Below, piece after piece: positions 408-29,905 of a DNA stretch of 34,435 nucleotides (its first letter is position 1; every line of letters begins with the position of its first letter). A program made the position numbers and the translations under genes. Under the pieces are notes generated by a model that was not told where the DNA came from, did not search any database, and saw nothing but the letters and a program-made list of their open reading frames with translations. The DNA is taken from positions 1 through 34,435 of the forward strand of contig CANNQU010000035.1 of NCBI GenBank assembly GCA_947507965.1, in the 5' to 3' direction. The DNA is from Bacteroidota bacterium (GTDB taxonomy: Bacteria > Bacteroidota > Bacteroidia > UKL13-3).

Positions 408-417
408 ACTACTCTTG

Positions 418-491
418 CTCCCTGATCTGGGCTCGAACCAGAGACCTAGTGATTAACAGTCACTCGCTCTAACCAACTGAGCTATCAAGGA
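418..491 (-). tRNA. tRNA-Asn (anticodon GTT)
   Basis: On the minus strand the sequence folds as a cloverleaf. A 7-bp acceptor stem pairs TCCTTGA with TCAGGGA (one G-T pair). The D arm contains AGTTGGTTA. The anticodon stem AGTGA/TCACT encloses the loop CTGTTAA, giving anticodon GTT. The T arm contains TTCGAGC. The discriminator base is G and the CCA end is not encoded. A -7 box at 531-538 lies about 40 bases upstream and a terminator follows, so it appears to be a single-gene transcript. Confidence 0.95.
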
Positions 492-582: not shown

Positions 583-1491
583 ATGAGTCTACTTAGTATA
601 GGAACCGTCGCTTTTGACGCCATTGAAACCCCCTTCGGGAAAACAGATAAGATTATTGGTGGTGCTGCCACTTTTATCTCACTTTCGGCGTCTTATTTCA
701 CAAAAAACATCAATCTGGTAGCCGTTGTGGGTGAAGATTTCCCTACAACATATATCGCTTTGTTAAATGCCAAAGGCGTTAACACCGATGGATTGCAGAT
801 AAAGAAAGGGGAGAAATCTTTTTTCTGGAGTGGTAAATACCATAGCGACATGAACGGCAGGGATACGTTAATTACGGAACTTAACGTGCTGGCCGATTTC
901 GACCCCATCATTCCGGAGAGTTATCAGGATTGCGATTACCTCATGCTGGGTAACCTTACCCCAATGGTACAGGAATTAGTTACACAGCGGCTGGTGAAGC
1001 GCCCAAAACTGGTGGTACTCGATACCATGAACTTCTGGATGGATGTGGCTTTAGATGACTTAAAACGCGTTCTGAAAAAAATTGATGTGTTAACGATCAA
1101 TGACGAAGAAGCACGCCAACTTAGCGGTGAGTATAATATATTAAAGGCGGCCCGGAAAATATTAAGCATGGGGCCTAGAACCTTAATCATAAAAAAAGGA
1201 GAACATGGGGCATTGCTCATTAACGACCAAGATATGTTTTATGCTCCCGGCTTGCCACTTGAAGAAGTATTCGACCCTACGGGGGCTGGTGATACTTTTG
1301 CCGGTGGATTTATTGGATATTTGGCCCATACCGGCGATATTAGCTTCGACAATATGAAAAGAGCCGTCATTCATGGGTCGGCCATGGCTTCTTTTTGTGT
1401 TGAGAAATTTGGCACCGAAAATTTATTGAACCTAACACCAGAGCTCATTACTACCCGGGTCAATAAATTTGCCAAACTGGTTACCTTTTAA
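583..1491 (+). CDS. PfkB-family carbohydrate kinase
   Basis: This is a ribokinase/PfkB-fold sugar kinase of 302 residues, near the usual family length. The N-terminal GGAAT motif (residues 26-30) fits the substrate side of PfkB signature 1. DPTGAGD (231-237) is signature 2, with the anion hole and Asp237 as the expected catalytic base. The sugar specificity cannot be read from the sequence. I chose ATG 583 over the longer frame from ATG 538 because homologous sequence begins at MSLLSIG and a TAnnTTTG box (562-569) lies between the two. Against this, AAGGAG precedes ATG 538 at good spacing. The last four bases overlap the convergent pdxH at a TTAA palindrome. Confidence 0.88.
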   Translation: MSLLSIGTVAFDAIETPFGKTDKIIGGAATFISLSASYFTKNINLVAVVGEDFPTTYIALLNAKGVNTDGLQIKKGEKSFFWSGKYHSDMNGRDTLITELNVLADFDPIIPESYQDCDYLMLGNLTPMVQELVTQRLVKRPKLVVLDTMNFWMDVALDDLKRVLKKIDVLTINDEEARQLSGEYNILKAARKILSMGPRTLIIKKGEHGALLINDQDMFYAPGLPLEEVFDPTGAGDTFAGGFIGYLAHTGDISFDNMKRAVIHGSAMASFCVEKFGTENLLNLTPELITTRVNKFAKLVTF

Positions 1492-2123
1492 GGCGCTAAC
1501 CGAACCCAACTCCAAGCTGATGCGTTTTGGGTGAATTGTATCCTGTCGTGGAAACGGCTTTGACGTCCCTGCCAGAATTCAATCATGGAGGGCATGAGCA
1601 GGAAACCTCCCCAATGATCGGGGAAAGGAACTTTTCCTCCGGCGTACATTTCCGTAGTCCTTTTATGCAATGCTTCCAACTCGAGTTTGCCTTCAATCGC
1701 TTTACTCTGTGGGGATATAATAGCACTTATCTGACTTTCAAAAGGACGGGAATAAAAATATTGCTCAGTTTCTTCTCTGCTCACCTTTTTTACGATTCCT
1801 TCAATTCTAACTTGCCGCTCTAATTCCAGCCACAAAAACACCAATGCGGCCTGTGGATTTTGAGCTAATTCAACCCCTTTGTGACTCTCGTAGTTCGTGT
1901 AAAAAATAAAACCATCGGGGGTTACTCCTTTTAACAACATCACGCGGGCCGAAGGTTTAGCATCGAGTGTGCAGGTAGCCAACGTCATTGCATTCGGCTC
2001 TGGCACTTGCGCCTCGATGGATTCTTCAAACCATCGTTTAAACTGCTGCATCGGATCATGAAGGACCTCTGTCTCATTCAAGCTCTTCATCTTATACTCT
2101 TTTCGCATTGCGGCTAAATCCAT
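1488..2123 (-). CDS. pdxH: Pyridoxamine 5'-phosphate oxidase
   Basis: This FMN-dependent oxidase converts PNP or PMP to pyridoxal 5'-phosphate, the last step of PLP synthesis and salvage, in the cytosol. The protein has 211 residues, the normal length. Recognisable blocks are the N-terminal MRKEY and DPMQQFKRWF stretch, the FMN-binding region SARVMLLKG through FYTNYESHKG, the LERQVRIEG strand, and the C-terminal PdxH signature with FHDR and the ending WVRLAP. The start fits the family. A near-consensus -7 box (TAACTTCG, 2181-2188 minus) lies upstream. The gene converges on the PfkB kinase with a 4-base stop-codon overlap. PLP made here would supply GlyA, encoded further on. Confidence 0.96.
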   Translation of the reverse strand: MDLAAMRKEYKMKSLNETEVLHDPMQQFKRWFEESIEAQVPEPNAMTLATCTLDAKPSARVMLLKGVTPDGFIFYTNYESHKGVELAQNPQAALVFLWLELERQVRIEGIVKKVSREETEQYFYSRPFESQISAIISPQSKAIEGKLELEALHKRTTEMYAGGKVPFPDHWGGFLLMPSMIEFWQGRQSRFHDRIQFTQNASAWSWVRLAP

Positions 2124-2265: not shown

Positions 2266-2392
2266 CTATTTTTTAACCATACGTTGTTTGTGTAATTTAA
2301 GCAGATGCCCTATTTACAAAATAAATAATCACATCTAAATCACGAAACCAATAGTCACCGTGGCTATCTGCCCCACTTCCAATCAACGACCG
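2266..2392 (-). pseudogene. Relic of a T9SS sorting-domain 3' end
   Basis: In the 387-base gap after pdxH the minus strand carries two short frames that together resemble a T9SS type A C-terminal domain. One contains FRDL, three residues, IYFV and then RASA (ends 2299); the other ends KLHKQRMVKK (stop 2266-2268). The neighbouring gene encodes FRDL, three residues, IYFV at the same place. At the DNA level a 14-base block (2313-2326) and an 11-base block (2337-2347) are identical to 2560-2573 and 2584-2594, each with a 10-base spacer between. The distance from IYFV to the stop differs by only about one codon. A frameshift and in-frame stops upstream rule out a working gene. Confidence 0.6.
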
Positions 2393-2510
2393 CTAATTTA
2401 TTGGCGACCCTATCGATTGCAAAATATTTATGGCCGAATATGTTTAATTAAAGGATGAACGGGGTAAATTGGGCATTGAATCAAACACCGATTTCCATAA
2501 TTTAGCGATA

Positions 2511-5216
2511 CTATTGCTTTACGACACGCAATATTTGCGAGGCACCGGCCGACGAAACCTTTACAAAATAAATGCCGGTCGCCAAATCACGAAAATCGAT
2601 GATCGTGCTTTGCTCCACTTCGTAATGGGCTTTCAGTAGTTTTCCGGCAGCATCAAAAACAGATATCTTATGCAAACCAAAATCGGCGAAGTTTAAATTG
2701 AGGTCCAGCTGTATTGGATTAGGATAAGCAGACACGATATCGGAATTTGCTCTTGTATCCAACCCTACAGGAATGACAAAGATCGCCACCGACTTGTTTT
2801 TACATCCATTCGAACCGGTAATTTCAACATAATAGGTTCCGTTTCCTAGAATGGTATAATTTTGCAATATGGCAGCATTAATAGGTAAGCCGTTTTTAAA
2901 CCATTGATATGCTACCGCTGTTGTGGAGGTAAGCACATCTGCATTTCTGGTAATAACAGGTAATGCTGGCAAAGCCTTTTCGACTACATTGAGAATATTG
3001 GATATTTTCTGACATGAACCAGAAGAAATTTTGACATTATAAGCACCCGGTGATTTGGCATAATAAACCGAACTGTTGGTACCCGTTAGTGGATTATTGT
3101 TTTTGTACCATAGATAGTTTAATCCCGCTAAGTTGTTCGTGGTTAATGGTATGGAGTCGCCGGCGCAATAAGAGCTGTCGTTGGCCGACACAACGGCTAC
3201 CGGAGTAGCATTTACCGTTACGTTTCGTGAGGAAGAGTTGACGGAACATACGCCATTATCGACCACCACAAAATAGGTTCCGCTATCGCTTATTGTTAAT
3301 GCATTTTGTGTGGCTGGTATTATTAATATTCCGTTTCGATACCATTTATAGATTAAACCATTCACATTGGGCACCTGATAGGTAATATTGCTATCACTAC
3401 AAATGATCGCATTATTTAAAGGAGTTATATTCGCATTGGGTGCATTGGGTATATTCAACGAAATGGAATTGGTCATACTTTGGCATCCGGTGGCATTACT
3501 TATCAATAAGGAATACACTCCGGTTACCGAAGCCGTTACCGAGGTATCCGTGGTGTTAAAGGGAATTCCATTTCGAAGCCACGTATAATTATAATTCCCG
3601 GTATTACGAACCTTTAAATTATAGATGCAGCCTATTTTTACCGAGTCGATGAAATTAGCTGGCGGAAGTGGGTTTACCTTAATTTGTTTTGCCAGGAAGG
3701 TGTTTTTGCATCCTCTATTTGAAGTCAATTCAACGGTGTAGATGCCTGAGGTTAACGCATAGCATTCCTTTTTGTTCGCACCAATAATTGGAGTAGAATT
3801 AAGGTACCATTGATAGGTTGTAATGGTATCGAGCGTTGAAACCGTTAACTTAGCAGAGTCTCCGGCACAAATGCTATCGAATGCAGCACTTATGTTTGCT
3901 GCCGGCAAATTATAAAATGTTGCTGTCAGCGTATTTGAAATTGTGTTACATCCGGTTGTTGTAAAAACGGTTACGCGATAGTCACCATCCAAGAAGACAT
4001 AATAGTTGGAGTCAAGGGATTGCTTTTCTAAAACATTATTCTTATACCAATAATAGCTATAGTTTAATCCACTTACTGTTTTCAGATGAATGCTATCGCC
4101 TTTGCAAGTGGAAGTGCCATTGATTGCGGTAAGAAAGGCATTAGGCTTAACATTAAACGTTAAGGTAATGGGTGTTGTTATAATCACACAACTACTGGTA
4201 GTAGAAACAATTAACGTATAGCTACCGGAGGTTTTAGCGTAATAGGTAAAGCCAATGGCACCAGGGATATTACTGCCATCTTTTTGCCATTGGTATGAAT
4301 ACGAAACGCTATTAAAACTATTAGACAATGCAATGGAATCGCCGGTACATAATAAGAGGCTAGAATTATAAATAATTCCGGCTATTGGGTTGGCGTTGAT
4401 GGTAACATTTTTTGTTATATAGGACGAGTACATGATGCTATTGGCAACCCGTAGTGAGCAGAGTTTGACTCCAGAACTAAATTTAACCCAAACGTTTTGA
4501 GCCGTTGATACCGCAGGAGTACCACCGGAAAAAATCCATTGATATGAGCTTGTTCCATTGGTTCCACTCGCAGAAAATAAGATGGAATCGGACTGACAAA
4601 TACTGTTCACATTGGTCGTTATTGATGCTACCGGTACATTGGTTGTTTGAGGGATGGTGAAATCCTTCAAGTTAATTTCGTCACCTGAATTGGTACTTGA
4701 ATTATCGGTTGCATTCATGGCAATATAGAGCCGTGCATTTCCTGAGAGCGAGGAAGGAGCCTTCCAATTAAAAAGCCATTCGGTACTATCGGTGAATACC
4801 GCACTTGTACCTGAACTGGTATGGGCGATATAATCGCGTGTGCCGCTCGTTAACTGAATGCTAGTGGAAGCCGTTGGAACTTGCAAGAGTCCTAGTTTTA
4901 TAGGAGATGCATTATCATCAAGTATGGTAGTAGAAAAACCAAACTTCACACAACTGGTCTTCCTTGCACGTATTCTTATTTGATATACCGAGTCGGGAAT
5001 ATACTGTCCATTCGTCATGTTCGTAATTAACGAAATGGCCGACGAATTCGTGATTGCGGAACCAGAATGGCATGAAGTACAATCGTCTTCCCCAGGAGCT
5101 CCTGTTTTTCCCGTTGGAGGCCCAGTCACATACGAGAGTGCATGATGTGCGATAAATAATAATGAAGAAACAAAAAAAATGGTAATAAATTTAAAAGGAG
5201 TAGAAAATTTTCTCAT
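2511..5216 (-). CDS. Secreted Ig-repeat protein with CxxCH motif, T9SS type A cargo
   Basis: This 901-residue exported protein has a signal peptide at about 1-28. Residues 30-190 resemble the Reeler-like choice-of-anchor V region of Bacteroidota, with GPPTGKTGAPGE followed by CTSCH (46-50), a possible c-type haem site. About eight Ig/PKD-like units of roughly 80 residues follow, most with a Cys near the start (xICxGDS) and one near the end (GC), fitting one disulfide per unit; the last unit lacks the first Cys. The final ~85 residues are a type A sorting domain (AYPNP, GKLLKA, GIYFVKV, ending VVKQ). It is probably a cell-surface or matrix protein of unknown ligand. Its ATG overlaps the flippase stop (TAATG), implying translational coupling. 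Confidence 0.88.
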   Translation of the reverse strand: MRKFSTPFKFITIFFVSSLLFIAHHALSYVTGPPTGKTGAPGEDDCTSCHSGSAITNSSAISLITNMTNGQYIPDSVYQIRIRARKTSCVKFGFSTTILDDNASPIKLGLLQVPTASTSIQLTSGTRDYIAHTSSGTSAVFTDSTEWLFNWKAPSSLSGNARLYIAMNATDNSSTNSGDEINLKDFTIPQTTNVPVASITTNVNSICQSDSILFSASGTNGTSSYQWIFSGGTPAVSTAQNVWVKFSSGVKLCSLRVANSIMYSSYITKNVTINANPIAGIIYNSSLLLCTGDSIALSNSFNSVSYSYQWQKDGSNIPGAIGFTYYAKTSGSYTLIVSTTSSCVIITTPITLTFNVKPNAFLTAINGTSTCKGDSIHLKTVSGLNYSYYWYKNNVLEKQSLDSNYYVFLDGDYRVTVFTTTGCNTISNTLTATFYNLPAANISAAFDSICAGDSAKLTVSTLDTITTYQWYLNSTPIIGANKKECYALTSGIYTVELTSNRGCKNTFLAKQIKVNPLPPANFIDSVKIGCIYNLKVRNTGNYNYTWLRNGIPFNTTDTSVTASVTGVYSLLISNATGCQSMTNSISLNIPNAPNANITPLNNAIICSDSNITYQVPNVNGLIYKWYRNGILIIPATQNALTISDSGTYFVVVDNGVCSVNSSSRNVTVNATPVAVVSANDSSYCAGDSIPLTTNNLAGLNYLWYKNNNPLTGTNSSVYYAKSPGAYNVKISSGSCQKISNILNVVEKALPALPVITRNADVLTSTTAVAYQWFKNGLPINAAILQNYTILGNGTYYVEITGSNGCKNKSVAIFVIPVGLDTRANSDIVSAYPNPIQLDLNLNFADFGLHKISVFDAAGKLLKAHYEVEQSTIIDFRDLATGIYFVKVSSAGASQILRVVKQ

Positions 5217-6649
5217 TAGCGAAGGGTTAGTTTTTTTAATTGATTAAGACTGAAAACATTCAAATATAATAAAACAAATAATCCGATAATGATTTGCAAA
5301 AATACTTTTACCAAAATATGACAATCAATATTTTGAAGAAAATAAGGTAATGCAAACTCAATAACAGCAAAAATCAGAACTTTAAATAACATCGAAAAAT
5401 CAAAGCTAATTTTATGTTTCTGATGCGTGATGATAAAATGAAACATGGCCACAAACCCTTGGGTAATAAGAGCTGACCATGCAGCACCTACAATTCCGTA
5501 GCTTCTAATGAAAAAATAATTAAGGGTAAAATTAATAATACAAGCAACGAATGCTATTTTGTTAAGTAACTTTAACTCGCCTTGTGCCGTTAAGTAGGTG
5601 CCATAAATATAAACGGTACAAGTAAACACAAAAGAGAGCATCAGGAGAAATAAAACATTTTCAACTTCTACATTATTGACCTTATTAAGCCATAATATGA
5701 TTTCATGATTATAGAAAAAGCATACCGATGCTCCGAATAAAGCAGGCGCAATAATCAAACTAAAACTTAATTTAAGCAATGCGTTGGGTGATTCCCTCAT
5801 TTGGGTGAAACGGGAAAAAATAGGGAGGAGTAATCCGGCAAAAAGAACAGCAATCATATTAGCCGCATCAAGTAATCGATAGGCCGAAGCGTAATGTCCC
5901 GCTTCAACCTTACCCGAAGGCAAAAGTCGCTCAATAAGGATGCCATCCATTTTAGAATAGAATCCCATTAAGATCCCAAGAATGGCATATGGATAACTTT
6001 TTTTCAGTAGATGAATAGAGAATGCCGTATTCCACTTCCAATTTAAATTGCTTAAATGCGGTTTGAGTAACAGAAAACAAAAAACCAACGTAATGAAATA
6101 AGAAAGTGACTGGGAGTAAACAAACCATTCGAGCTTCATGGCTCCAAAAATATTCCCCCATAGTAACAAAGCACAAAATAGAATCATTAATAATCTATCC
6201 AATACGGATAGCAGGCTATCGGTAATAAAATAGTGTAGTCCAGAAATATTAGACCTTAAATACGTGACCCCAAAAGATAATACCTGATTAAAACACAAGA
6301 GGAGAAGAAGGTTAAGATGCACTTTATCATAGCCTACGATAAATGCAATCGTTAGGGTAATCATAAGATAGAGTACCACCAACAGCAGCTTAAGCATCAC
6401 CAACTGAGGAAACTTTTTACTAAGAAGCTGAGGGTATTTGGCAATAAAAGTATTATTATAATTATTAATGCCAAAATCCAGCATTACATTAAAAATAAAG
6501 GAGAAGCTAAATAATGAAAAATAAAAGCCATATTCTTCTGCGCCTATGGCATTTTGAACACCACGTTCCACCCCTAATACCCAAAAGGGTTTAATGAGCA
6601 GATTGATACCCACGGCAAAAATTAAATTAATGATGAACCTCCGCTTCAC
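5216..6649 (-). CDS. Wzx-like polysaccharide flippase
   Basis: This integral membrane protein of the polysaccharide-synthesis/MOP flippase superfamily has many hydrophobic helices along its 477 residues. The N-terminus has the Bacteroidota pattern LLIKPFWVLG, VQNAIGAEEYGFYFSLF and LDFGINNYN. It probably moves lipid-linked oligosaccharide across the inner membrane for surface glycan assembly. I place the start at GTG 6649, just before KRRFIINL, where homologous sequence begins. An in-frame ATG at 6709 would add 20 residues, but a minus-strand TAnnTTTG box (6688-6695) lies inside that extension, and that ATG overlaps the divergent glycosyltransferase ATG. It is the first gene of a pair with the Ig-repeat protein. 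Confidence 0.85.
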   Translation of the reverse strand: MKRRFIINLIFAVGINLLIKPFWVLGVERGVQNAIGAEEYGFYFSLFSFSFIFNVMLDFGINNYNNTFIAKYPQLLSKKFPQLVMLKLLLVVLYLMITLTIAFIVGYDKVHLNLLLLLCFNQVLSFGVTYLRSNISGLHYFITDSLLSVLDRLLMILFCALLLWGNIFGAMKLEWFVYSQSLSYFITLVFCFLLLKPHLSNLNWKWNTAFSIHLLKKSYPYAILGILMGFYSKMDGILIERLLPSGKVEAGHYASAYRLLDAANMIAVLFAGLLLPIFSRFTQMRESPNALLKLSFSLIIAPALFGASVCFFYNHEIILWLNKVNNVEVENVLFLLMLSFVFTCTVYIYGTYLTAQGELKLLNKIAFVACIINFTLNYFFIRSYGIVGAAWSALITQGFVAMFHFIITHQKHKISFDFSMLFKVLIFAVIEFALPYFLQNIDCHILVKVFLQIIIGLFVLLYLNVFSLNQLKKLTLR

Positions 6650-6679
6650 GTATACTTTAATAAATTTAATGTACACTTG

Positions 6680-6695
6680 TACCTTTGCAAATATA
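6680..6695. promoter_or_regulatory. Divergent promoter core: abutting -7 boxes
   Basis: TACCTTTG (6680-6687, plus) directly abuts CAAATATA (6688-6695), which reads TATATTTG on the minus strand. Both match TAnnTTTG exactly. The plus box serves the glycosyltransferase (ATG 6708) and the minus box the flippase (GTG 6649). The two polymerase footprints would overlap almost completely, so the genes should compete for transcription. No clear TTG -33 elements were found. Confidence 0.65.
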
Positions 6696-6707
6696 TCCTT
6701 TACACGC

Positions 6708-7826
6708 ATGAAGATTGCAGTAAATACGAGATTCTTAATTCAAGATAAAATAGAGGGCATTGGTAGATTCACCTATGAAATGCTAAAATGCATGGTTTTA
6801 CAACATCCTGAAGTTGAGTTTGTTTTTTTTTTCGATCGTAATTTCAGCACCGATTTTTTGTTTTCAACCAATATAACGGCCGTAAAACTATTTCCACCAG
6901 CCCGGCACCCTTTGTTGTTTATCTGGTATTTTGAATGGAGCATTTACAGGGCGCTAAAAAAACATAAACCAGATGTTTTTTTAAGTTGTGATGGTTTTTT
7001 ATCACTTCGAAGTAAAACGCCTCAAATTGCGGTAATTCATGATCTCGCTTTTGAGCACAATCCTGAAGATGTTTCCCTTCTTGAGCGTTACTATTATAAA
7101 TTTTTCTTCCCGCGATTTGCGAAAAAAGCGAGTAGAATATGTACCGTTTCTGATTTCTCTAAAAAAGATATCATGGAGAGATACAACATAGAAGCACAGA
7201 AGATAGACATCGTTTATAACGGCGCTAATGCAGTTTTTAAGCCGATAGATAGCACACAGAAACTGGAGACAAAAATTAGATTCACTTCGGGCGAAGATTA
7301 TTTTATGTACGTTGGTGCCATCCAACCTCGGAAAAATATTAGCCGATTGCTTTTAGCCTTCGATGCGTTTAAGAAAACGCAACCTTCCACCTGTAAACTA
7401 TTGATTGTAGGACGAAAAGCATGGAAAACCAAATTCATAGAGGACACCTACGATCAAATGATGTTTAAGAGCGATGTTTTGTTCACCGGGAGAGTAGCTG
7501 ACGAGGATTTGGCAAAGCTCATGGCAAGTGCCTTGGCACTTACCTACATTCCCTACCTGGAAGGATTTGGCATTCCTATATTAGAAGCGATGCAATGTGG
7601 CACACCGGTTATTACAAGTAACAGAACATCGATGCCGGAAGTAGCGGGCAATGCCGCTATTTTAGTTAACCCGTTCGATCTTGATGACATTTGTAATGCA
7701 ATGAAAACAATCTTCTTAGATTCTACTTTACAACATACGCTCTCCCAAAACGGCTTAATTCAATCGAAAAAGTTTAGTTGGGAAAAAACGTCGGAACTTC
7801 TATGGAAAAGCATAAACTCAGTCTAG
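6708..7826 (+). CDS. GT4-family glycosyltransferase
   Basis: This is a GT-B fold, family 4 glycosyltransferase of 372 residues. Evidence includes the N-terminal glycine-rich loop GIGRFTYEML (17-26), HDLAFE at His111, AIQPRKN (204-210) for the sugar-nucleotide phosphate, and the E-x7-E motif EGFGIPILE (285-293), followed by CGTPVI and MPEVAG. It probably adds mannose or a related sugar to a surface polysaccharide, in the cytosol at the inner membrane. It is divergent from the flippase, its likely partner. The start is the ATG at 6708, 20 bases after the plus-strand -7 box; an upstream in-frame ATG at 6594 lies before that promoter. Its stop overlaps the next, convergent gene within CTAG. Confidence 0.9.
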   Translation: MKIAVNTRFLIQDKIEGIGRFTYEMLKCMVLQHPEVEFVFFFDRNFSTDFLFSTNITAVKLFPPARHPLLFIWYFEWSIYRALKKHKPDVFLSCDGFLSLRSKTPQIAVIHDLAFEHNPEDVSLLERYYYKFFFPRFAKKASRICTVSDFSKKDIMERYNIEAQKIDIVYNGANAVFKPIDSTQKLETKIRFTSGEDYFMYVGAIQPRKNISRLLLAFDAFKKTQPSTCKLLIVGRKAWKTKFIEDTYDQMMFKSDVLFTGRVADEDLAKLMASALALTYIPYLEGFGIPILEAMQCGTPVITSNRTSMPEVAGNAAILVNPFDLDDICNAMKTIFLDSTLQHTLSQNGLIQSKKFSWEKTSELLWKSINSV

Positions 7827-27943: not shown

Positions 27944-29905
27944 ATGAAAGCGCAACGAAACTTCTATATTTTCCTATTGGTTATCGCTTCGTATGGTTGC
28001 GTGGCTGGAAGTGTTTATGGAAGCGACATTTTTTGGAAACGACTGGCCAACGACACCTTTCAAATTAAATTCGAAATTTACACCGACTGTTCAGAGCCTT
28101 TGGATAGTATCAATCCGGAAATTACATCCTTGCCATGCAGCACTGCAATTCCTGTTTTATTTGGGAAGCCAATTTCACACAGCACCTTTAACGTAACGCC
28201 CCGATGTAGTAACGAAAGAAGCAAATGTGAAACCAACCCCACACTGTCTTATGGAATGAACAAAAATACGTTTATTTATAAAATTTACTTGGGTGAAAAT
28301 ACCTCATGCTGTTGGTATAAAATTATTCTAAAAGGCCTGAAACGCGATGATGAAATTAATAATGGTAATGCGAATACGGAGTTTGAAACATCGGTTGCAC
28401 TAGATCGATGTGTTAACACCAATGTGGAGAGCATCGATTTTAAAAATAGTCCAATGAGAGTTTATTACAAGAATTTTGACGGCTATTATAATCATGGGAT
28501 AGTACAAGCCAATGGAGATTCTATTTCATTCGCCTTACCATCGCCTATCCATGCAACCTTCAACTCCCCATTTTCTGCTATCTATCCCTTACCCTGTTAC
28601 GGAGGCCCAATAAAACCTACAACCATAAGCCCTTTTAACGGATTTGGGTTGGATAGCCTTACCGGAGACATCTCCTCACGACCTACGCAAAATGGCTATT
28701 ATAATTTTAGAGTGGAAGCAAGACAATGGAAAAAAGTAAACGGCGTGTATGCCTTGGTCGGAATTTCAAATCGAGAACTGTTATATATCATTATCGATAA
28801 GCCCATAACAAATCCACCAACACTCAGTGGTCCGTATAGTTATCAAGCATATCCGGGTCAGCAGGTTTGTATTACAGTATATTCCAACGACTTAGATACG
28901 GATGACACAACCCGAGTTTTCTGGGATAGAAAAATACCGACGGGAACCTTTGCAGATAATAATGGCAGTGTAAAGCATGCATCGTGCACCTTCTGTTGGA
29001 CTCCAACGGAAGATGATGCTAGCTGCCTGCCATACTATTTTAATATCATTGCCCGTGATGATCATTGTATGGTTGAAGAATATGGCATCAAACAATACCA
29101 AATTCTTGTGATGCCGATGCTGAAAACAACAGAACAATACACTAAAATAAATTGTCATACCTATCAGTTTAAAAGCGCCCCAACCAATAGAAACGGTTGC
29201 TTAGCTAATATACCTTATTTAATTCGCTGGTATGAGCCAAAGTTAGTAGGCACCGGCAACACTACTACCCTGATAAGCAAACGGGATAGTGTAAGATATG
29301 ATTTCAAAGAGGGGGGGAAATATAGTATTAAACACTCCGTTACCGTTAACGGAAACACCGAGACCACTTTTGACACTTTACTTATCGAACCCTTTAACAC
29401 AGCAAATATTACCAATAATGATTCGACCGTTAATGCCAATGATATGGTGCAGCTATATGCCGAAACTAAATTTAATGTTCCATTAAACCAATATCAATGG
29501 TGGGCCAATGGTAAATTAATAGATACCTCTTCAACTGTTTTTGTTAGCCCATCGAAAAGCACTACCTACACTTTAATAAACAAGGCACTATCCTTTCCAT
29601 GCGATGTAACACAGGATAATGTGACCCTCCTAGTTGAAGGAACCGTTGGAATAAATCAATTACAAAAACGGCTGACAATGGGTGTAACAACAAATCCATT
29701 CCAGTCCAATATAAGCTTCCTAAATACCGAGAAGGAGTTTAATGAACTAACCTTAGTGGCTATGAACGGAAAAATTATTTTGAAAAAACAAATAACAGAA
29801 ACGATAATTAAAATAGATACCTCTAATTTACCTACTGGTATTTATATTGTTGAATTGAAAAACGAAAAGCGAAAGGAACTATTTAAATTGATTATAACGA
29901 ATTGA
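27944..29905 (+). CDS. Secreted surface protein, T9SS type A cargo
   Basis: This 653-residue protein has a signal peptide (about 1-26). Its N-terminal domain begins GSDIFWKRLANDTFQIKFEI, a form common at the N-terminus of SprB-like gliding adhesins and related Bacteroidota surface proteins. Many cysteines suggest disulfides. A PKD/Ig-like segment at about 490-560 contains YQWWANGKLI and SKSTTYTL. The last ~75 residues are a type A sorting domain (NPFQSNISF, VAMNGKIILKK, LPTGIYIVEL). Function is unknown beyond probable surface exposure. No clear -7 box was found upstream. Confidence 0.83.
   Translation: MKAQRNFYIFLLVIASYGCVAGSVYGSDIFWKRLANDTFQIKFEIYTDCSEPLDSINPEITSLPCSTAIPVLFGKPISHSTFNVTPRCSNERSKCETNPTLSYGMNKNTFIYKIYLGENTSCCWYKIILKGLKRDDEINNGNANTEFETSVALDRCVNTNVESIDFKNSPMRVYYKNFDGYYNHGIVQANGDSISFALPSPIHATFNSPFSAIYPLPCYGGPIKPTTISPFNGFGLDSLTGDISSRPTQNGYYNFRVEARQWKKVNGVYALVGISNRELLYIIIDKPITNPPTLSGPYSYQAYPGQQVCITVYSNDLDTDDTTRVFWDRKIPTGTFADNNGSVKHASCTFCWTPTEDDASCLPYYFNIIARDDHCMVEEYGIKQYQILVMPMLKTTEQYTKINCHTYQFKSAPTNRNGCLANIPYLIRWYEPKLVGTGNTTTLISKRDSVRYDFKEGGKYSIKHSVTVNGNTETTFDTLLIEPFNTANITNNDSTVNANDMVQLYAETKFNVPLNQYQWWANGKLIDTSSTVFVSPSKSTTYTLINKALSFPCDVTQDNVTLLVEGTVGINQLQKRLTMGVTTNPFQSNISFLNTEKEFNELTLVAMNGKIILKKQITETIIKIDTSNLPTGIYIVELKNEKRKELFKLIITN

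Follow-up and report, generated by a model that had tools for sequence, protein, structure and literature searches.

A decayed sorting-domain end beside an intact T9SS cargo gene as the probable stump of a lost tandem paralogue

Introduction

The window analysed here is the whole of a 34,435-nucleotide stretch (contig CANNQU010000035.1, assembly GCA_947507965.1) from a Bacteroidota bacterium of the lineage UKL13-3, in which the sorting-domain end of an intact T9SS cargo gene is accompanied, a short distance 3' of it, by a second and degraded one. The locus raises the question of how such a gene end came to stand alone. The preliminary description, made from the sequence of the window, proposed a 3'-end duplication or recombination through which the intact gene acquired a new sorting domain, its old tail and terminator staying behind. 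Bacterial gene relics are also known that remained when one member of a tandem pair of paralogues was deleted. Here we delimit the relic, describe the corresponding locus in related genomes, and argue for an origin of this latter kind.

Results

The intact gene and its neighbours

The intact gene, termed W, lies on the minus strand (2511-5216) and encodes 901 residues, comprising a choice-of-anchor V domain (residues 19-185), Ig-like repeats and a C-terminal T9SS type A sorting domain (residues 831-901). In profile searches NCBIfam NF041895 and TIGR04183, and Pfam Ig_7 and Por_Secre_tail, all exceeded their cut-offs; TIGR04183 scored 50.4 bits over residues 831-901 (cut-off 23) and PF18962 scored 43.4 (cut-off 27). 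The start of W overlaps by one base a flippase-like gene (5216-6709, minus strand), which in relatives also neighbours a gene termed B; beyond the relic lies pdxH (1488-2123, minus strand; TIGR00558 above cut-off), the downstream neighbour of a gene termed A in two relatives (G001 and G003). The window's own genome (G000; 3.4 Mb) contains at least 130 matches to TIGR04183 at E 0.01 or better, with 150 of 156 first-look candidates scored, which would appear to be a large T9SS cargo set for a genome of that size.

Extent and sequence of the relic

As delimited by frameshift-tolerant and DNA alignments, the relic comprises the last 45-50 codons or so of a gene on the minus strand, ending in the stop codon TAG (2268-2266). 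It spans 2266 to at most 2413, an outer limit, and may thus extend past 2392, where it was first taken to end. The features by which it was initially recognised are present: blocks of 14 identical bases (2313-2326 and 2560-2573) and of 11 (AAATCACGAAA; 2337-2347 and 2584-2594), both 247 bases apart, and minus-strand translations that read FRDLDVIIYFVN in one frame and LLKLHKQRMVKK followed by a stop in another. Similarity to the end of W continues past both blocks, in a DNA local alignment of about 65 bases with small gaps; the DNA local alignment score of 43 was reached by one of 2000 Markov-shuffled sequences. When frameshifts were tolerated, protein alignment of 2413-2244 with the W tail scored 50, above all 300 shuffled sequences (mean 22.4, maximum 37), confirming a decayed second sorting-domain end beside W; aligned to the W C-terminus it reads NKLAVVD/WEVGQIAT/VDYWFRDLDVIIYFVNRASA*ITQT/TRMVKK-stop. 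Single-frame tblastn of the same stretch was not significant (best 21.2 bits, a score as high being obtained from 26 of 500 shuffles), for which the frameshifts would account. The 130 TIGR04183 matches listed for the genome at E 0.01, with 150 of 156 candidates scored, also include none at the place of the relic, so that frameshift-tolerant and DNA alignments recognise a sorting-domain end where this profile gives no match.

Compared by frameshift-tolerant score with four functional tails, the relic is nearest to that of W (50), followed by those of the single intact gene of G002, termed G2 (44), and of the B (33) and A (29) genes of G001. In a partial control using 23 sorting-domain tails of its own genome, extracted from 22 of 30 loci out of the 130 TIGR04183 matches, the best score was 33 and the median 24, against 50 for the W tail. 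By a second DNA alignment its best partners were a corresponding relic in G002 (22.0) and the W tail (21.5), each reached by 0 of 1000 shuffles (dinucleotide shuffles in the case of W), whereas with the A tails of G001 and G003 the relic DNA did not align better than shuffled sequence (a score as high in 396 and 143 of 1000, respectively).

A faint resemblance to a nucleotidyltransferase motif, remarked earlier in the same DNA, found no support: the stretch concerned aligns with residues 1019-1044 in the sorting domain of G2 (weakly when taken alone, E 0.05) and, on the strength of the alignments, is the decayed sorting domain itself. The stretch 2488-2414, where an FG-HK motif occurs and an alignment extending to 2488 scored 60 (maximum of 60 shuffles, 35), was considered as the preceding half of the decayed domain and was rejected. 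The upper part of that alignment is probably fortuitous, because 2510-2414 alone scores like shuffled sequence (36 of 300 as high) and aligns with an intergenic spacer in G002, described below.

The locus in related genomes

Five genomes of the genus, including the window's own (G000-G004; in 40-180 contigs), were compared at the locus between the flippase-like gene and pdxH, which holds a gene pair in two of the five, one gene and a relic in two, and neither in one. G001 has two complete tandem genes, B (1055 residues, flippase side) and A (903 residues, pdxH side), 56% identical in alignment. In G003 gene A is complete; pieces of B adjoin A at one contig end and the flippase-like gene at another, and would be parts of one gene. 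Whether relatives have an intact gene at the place of the relic, a check suggested in the preliminary description, is thus answered by both genomes, and the gene found there is a related one, encoding sorting-domain cargo. With homology to a functional gene, disabling changes (an in-frame TAA and a 2-base shift) and an intact gene at the same place in relatives, the relic bears all the marks of a pseudogene.

G002 retains a single intact gene of B type, G2 (1056 residues from its likely ATG), and a decayed gene in the place of A. In G004 such a gene is absent from the neighbourhood of pdxH, a homologue (C9) lying elsewhere, and no second full-length copy was found in G000 or G002. A scan of the genome contigs for pdxH returned at least 80 loci; among the matches listed only one (L056) was close (84%), the others being at most 55% identical, and this locus is contig CAIUDH010000076.1, by its place G002's own contig. 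G2 (L021 4892-8233) and the B gene of G001 (L022 5427-8594) contain an extra block of about 155 residues, made of Ig-like repeats, that W and the A genes are without.

Downstream of G2 the minus strand retains three pieces of the second gene in colinear order, from its start, its interior and its tail; their E-values each apply to that short stretch only. The decayed start (L021 4634-4569; MAQFSTPFKFLTLIFASAFFLL-stop) matches six proteins of the genus by tblastn (E 2.7e-6 to 8.7e-5), the best of them W; the interior piece (L021 4567-4457), which ends LPAVPIIGRYYDLLTSS, is nearest to G2, the B-type gene of the same genome (E 1.8e-7); and the tail (L021 4443-4378; SGVYFVNM*SLNISQTIRVVKE) gives E 4e-4 to 0.014. 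The best single piece scored 35.8 bits, which none of 500 shuffles reached. Read from these alignments, the G002 relic is a complete second gene that has lost internal parts by deletion. The relic of the window and its 3' flank align with the G002 tail and flank (0 of 1000 shuffles each). The disabling change in the G002 relic is a TGA, and because the changes in the last codons differ between the two relics the lost gene may have begun to decay only after the lineages had separated.

Spacer, terminator and 3' flank

Between the relic and the stop of W, positions 2414-2494 (minus strand) would represent a remnant of the spacer between B and A, since they align with L021:4777-4697 of G002, upstream of the decayed start in that genome (score 33, against a maximum of 22 in 2000 shuffles, the query being cut at 2414). 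Without this cut, blastn aligned 2414-2470 with the G002 sequence (75% over 57 bases, E 4.6e-5). When 2266-2510 was searched as DNA across the genus, the matches outside its own place were that to the G002 spacer (E 3.5e-4) and 26 of lower significance (E 0.001 to 0.72).

On the pdxH side, the sequence between the relic stop and pdxH can be aligned with the flanks of G002 (0 of 1000 shuffles as high), G001 (2 of 1000) and G003 (3 of 1000), and the relic stop stands 142 bases before the pdxH start, the A stop being 141 bases before it in G001 and 140 in G003. The strong terminator first reported to follow the relic is borne out to the extent that one intrinsic-terminator-like hairpin, the candidate end of the lost gene, occurs at 2245-2217 (minus strand) and is the only one found in a scan of 2100-2620, but the scan alone is weak evidence, since shuffled sequences average 0.5 hairpins. 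In G002 likewise the only hairpin found lies beyond the relic (shuffles average 0.3). The B genes of G001 and G003 have their own terminator-like hairpin directly 3' of the stop. The scan for a terminator of A in G001 found none; by eye, a hairpin with GGCGGT/ACCGCC arms can be read there before a T run. Because the sole hairpin found by the scan lies beyond the relic, transcripts of W probably include the stump as their 3' untranslated region, and the stump now probably serves only as untranslated sequence carrying that gene's terminator.

Since G001 and G003 keep a whole gene A, and G002 a pseudogene with start, interior and tail, we regard it as highly probable from the compared sequences that the relic is the 3' remnant of a tandem paralogue that has since been lost, a grading that concerns the origin of the stump and not the conversion step discussed below. 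The ancestral order would have been flippase, gene B, spacer, gene A, terminator and pdxH, with A and B as tandem paralogues for T9SS cargo that carried an anchor V domain, Ig repeats and a type A sorting domain. The lost gene is called A by its position and not by its sequence type, because the relic is nearer to the tails of W and G2 and the G002 interior piece is nearest to G2.

Mosaic structure of W

W occupies the place of B, overlapping the flippase-like gene and being followed by the spacer, and was compared with its relatives in trees of seq­uences numbering seven. For residues 1-830, trees joining W with G2 were rejected by 43-52 lnL units (AU p at most 4e-4), and the three trees kept share a split of W and A from G2 and B, differing only in the root. 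The strongest signal resides in residues 516-830; with residues 1-190 alone no tree was rejected by AU at 0.05. In the preset tail (831-901) the preference is reversed relative to the body, with the W+A tree not rejected (AU 0.07). Summed along the gene, the per-site likelihood difference reaches its maximum at residue 811 and then loses 10 units across the final 90 residues, an end so negative having a site-permutation p of 0.007; in 50-residue windows, interior dips at 201-250 (-5.6) and 401-450 (-6.2) are as deep as the last two windows (-4.6 and -4.1). For residues 72-811 (2784-5003, minus strand) only W+A was kept among three trees, W+G2 being rejected by 50 lnL (AU p 3e-4), and for residues 812-901 (2514-2783, minus strand), which include the sorting domain, W+A was rejected (AU p 0.015), the break at 811 having been chosen post hoc from the same data. 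A 5' break was not significant (prefix permutation p 0.43), and the trees were not told apart on residues 1-71. By DNA alignment with intact tails, the W tail scored 51 and 51 with the two B tails, 44 with G2, and worst with the A tails (24.5 and 18.5).

By these tests W looks like a mosaic, of A type over residues 72-811 and grouping with the B-position genes over residues 812-901, and its position would make the tail native and the body imported. The recombination suspected earlier thus retains some support, in that the last 90 residues of W may be of other ancestry, but not through the tail duplication then proposed. Because W sits in the place of B with an A-type body and a B-like tail, we prefer, as an even call, a gene conversion in which A sequence overwrote most of the interior of B (about residues 72-811) in the window's lineage before A was lost; the deletion of A, from the spacer to about its last 50 codons, would then have followed.

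It has a sizeable chance, though one clearly short of even, that paralogue loss is true and W simply descends from one paralogue, the mosaic signal being an artefact of rate or alignment. Just seven sequences were available, the preset tail keeps W+A, with G004 as outgroup the split for the whole gene receives an ultrafast bootstrap of only 61/60, and the module of about 155 residues common to G2 and B, being repeat-like, could vary in copy number independently; such descent must nevertheless be set against the rejection of W and G2 as sisters, both for residues 1-830 and for 72-811, and against a tail that prefers the opposite tree. A crossover with later loss of the first gene is a possible substitute for conversion that needs more steps. 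Tentatively, and at somewhat less than an even chance, conversion may exemplify a wider process in which tandem T9SS cargo paralogues of the genus swap modules with a break near the start of the sorting domain, W being a hybrid of A body and B tail and the stump a leftover of the donor.

Alternative origins of the relic

The origin first proposed, in which W acquired a new sorting domain, either by duplication of about 247 3'-terminal bases or from an inserted foreign tail, while the old tail and terminator stayed, is improbable. It could draw on the proximity of the relic to W's own tail among the four functional ones and on the differing affinity of the last 90 residues of W, but it does not provide for the full second gene at that place in G001 and G003, the second start and interior piece kept in G002, or the alignment of 2414-2494, between the two tails, with a spacer upstream of a decayed start. 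Chance similarity in AT-rich DNA or an artefact of MAG assembly, with which the non-significant single-frame tblastn would agree, is barely credible given frameshift-tolerant and DNA scores above every shuffle made (300 and 1000) and a corresponding relic, spacer and hairpin in the separate genome G002.

Discussion

The relic is a real but ordinary product of tandem-paralogue loss and of ordinary genome decay. Like other relics of tandem deletion it is a truncated, frameshifted 3' stump where relatives keep an intact paralogue, and it differs from them in no essential way; here the retained terminator probably ends the transcript of the neighbour. Within one genus the locus presents a tandem surface-protein pair reduced to one gene, as an intact pair, a decayed copy and a bare stump, and it cautions that a stray sorting-domain end should not be called a tail swap without relatives.

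Should the mosaic be true, sorting domains would have recombined separately from cargo, with protein bodies and secretion tails evolving as separable units. Surface proteins of Porphyromonas gingivalis, gingipains included, are described as subject to domain rearrangement and allelic exchange (PMC5266723), and W would resemble them in that parts are proposed there to be reshuffled when related surface-protein genes recombine by homology. The P. gingivalis case concerns diversity among strains of one species, whereas W would reflect one conversion between neighbouring genes, stopping near the sorting domain, in an uncultured bacterium.

Elsewhere in the window a further TIGR04183 match occurs at 29690-29896 (plus strand), and the sole tRNA detected by ARAGORN, a tRNA-Asn (anticodon GTT; 417-491, minus strand), lies just upstream of a PfkB-type kinase gene.
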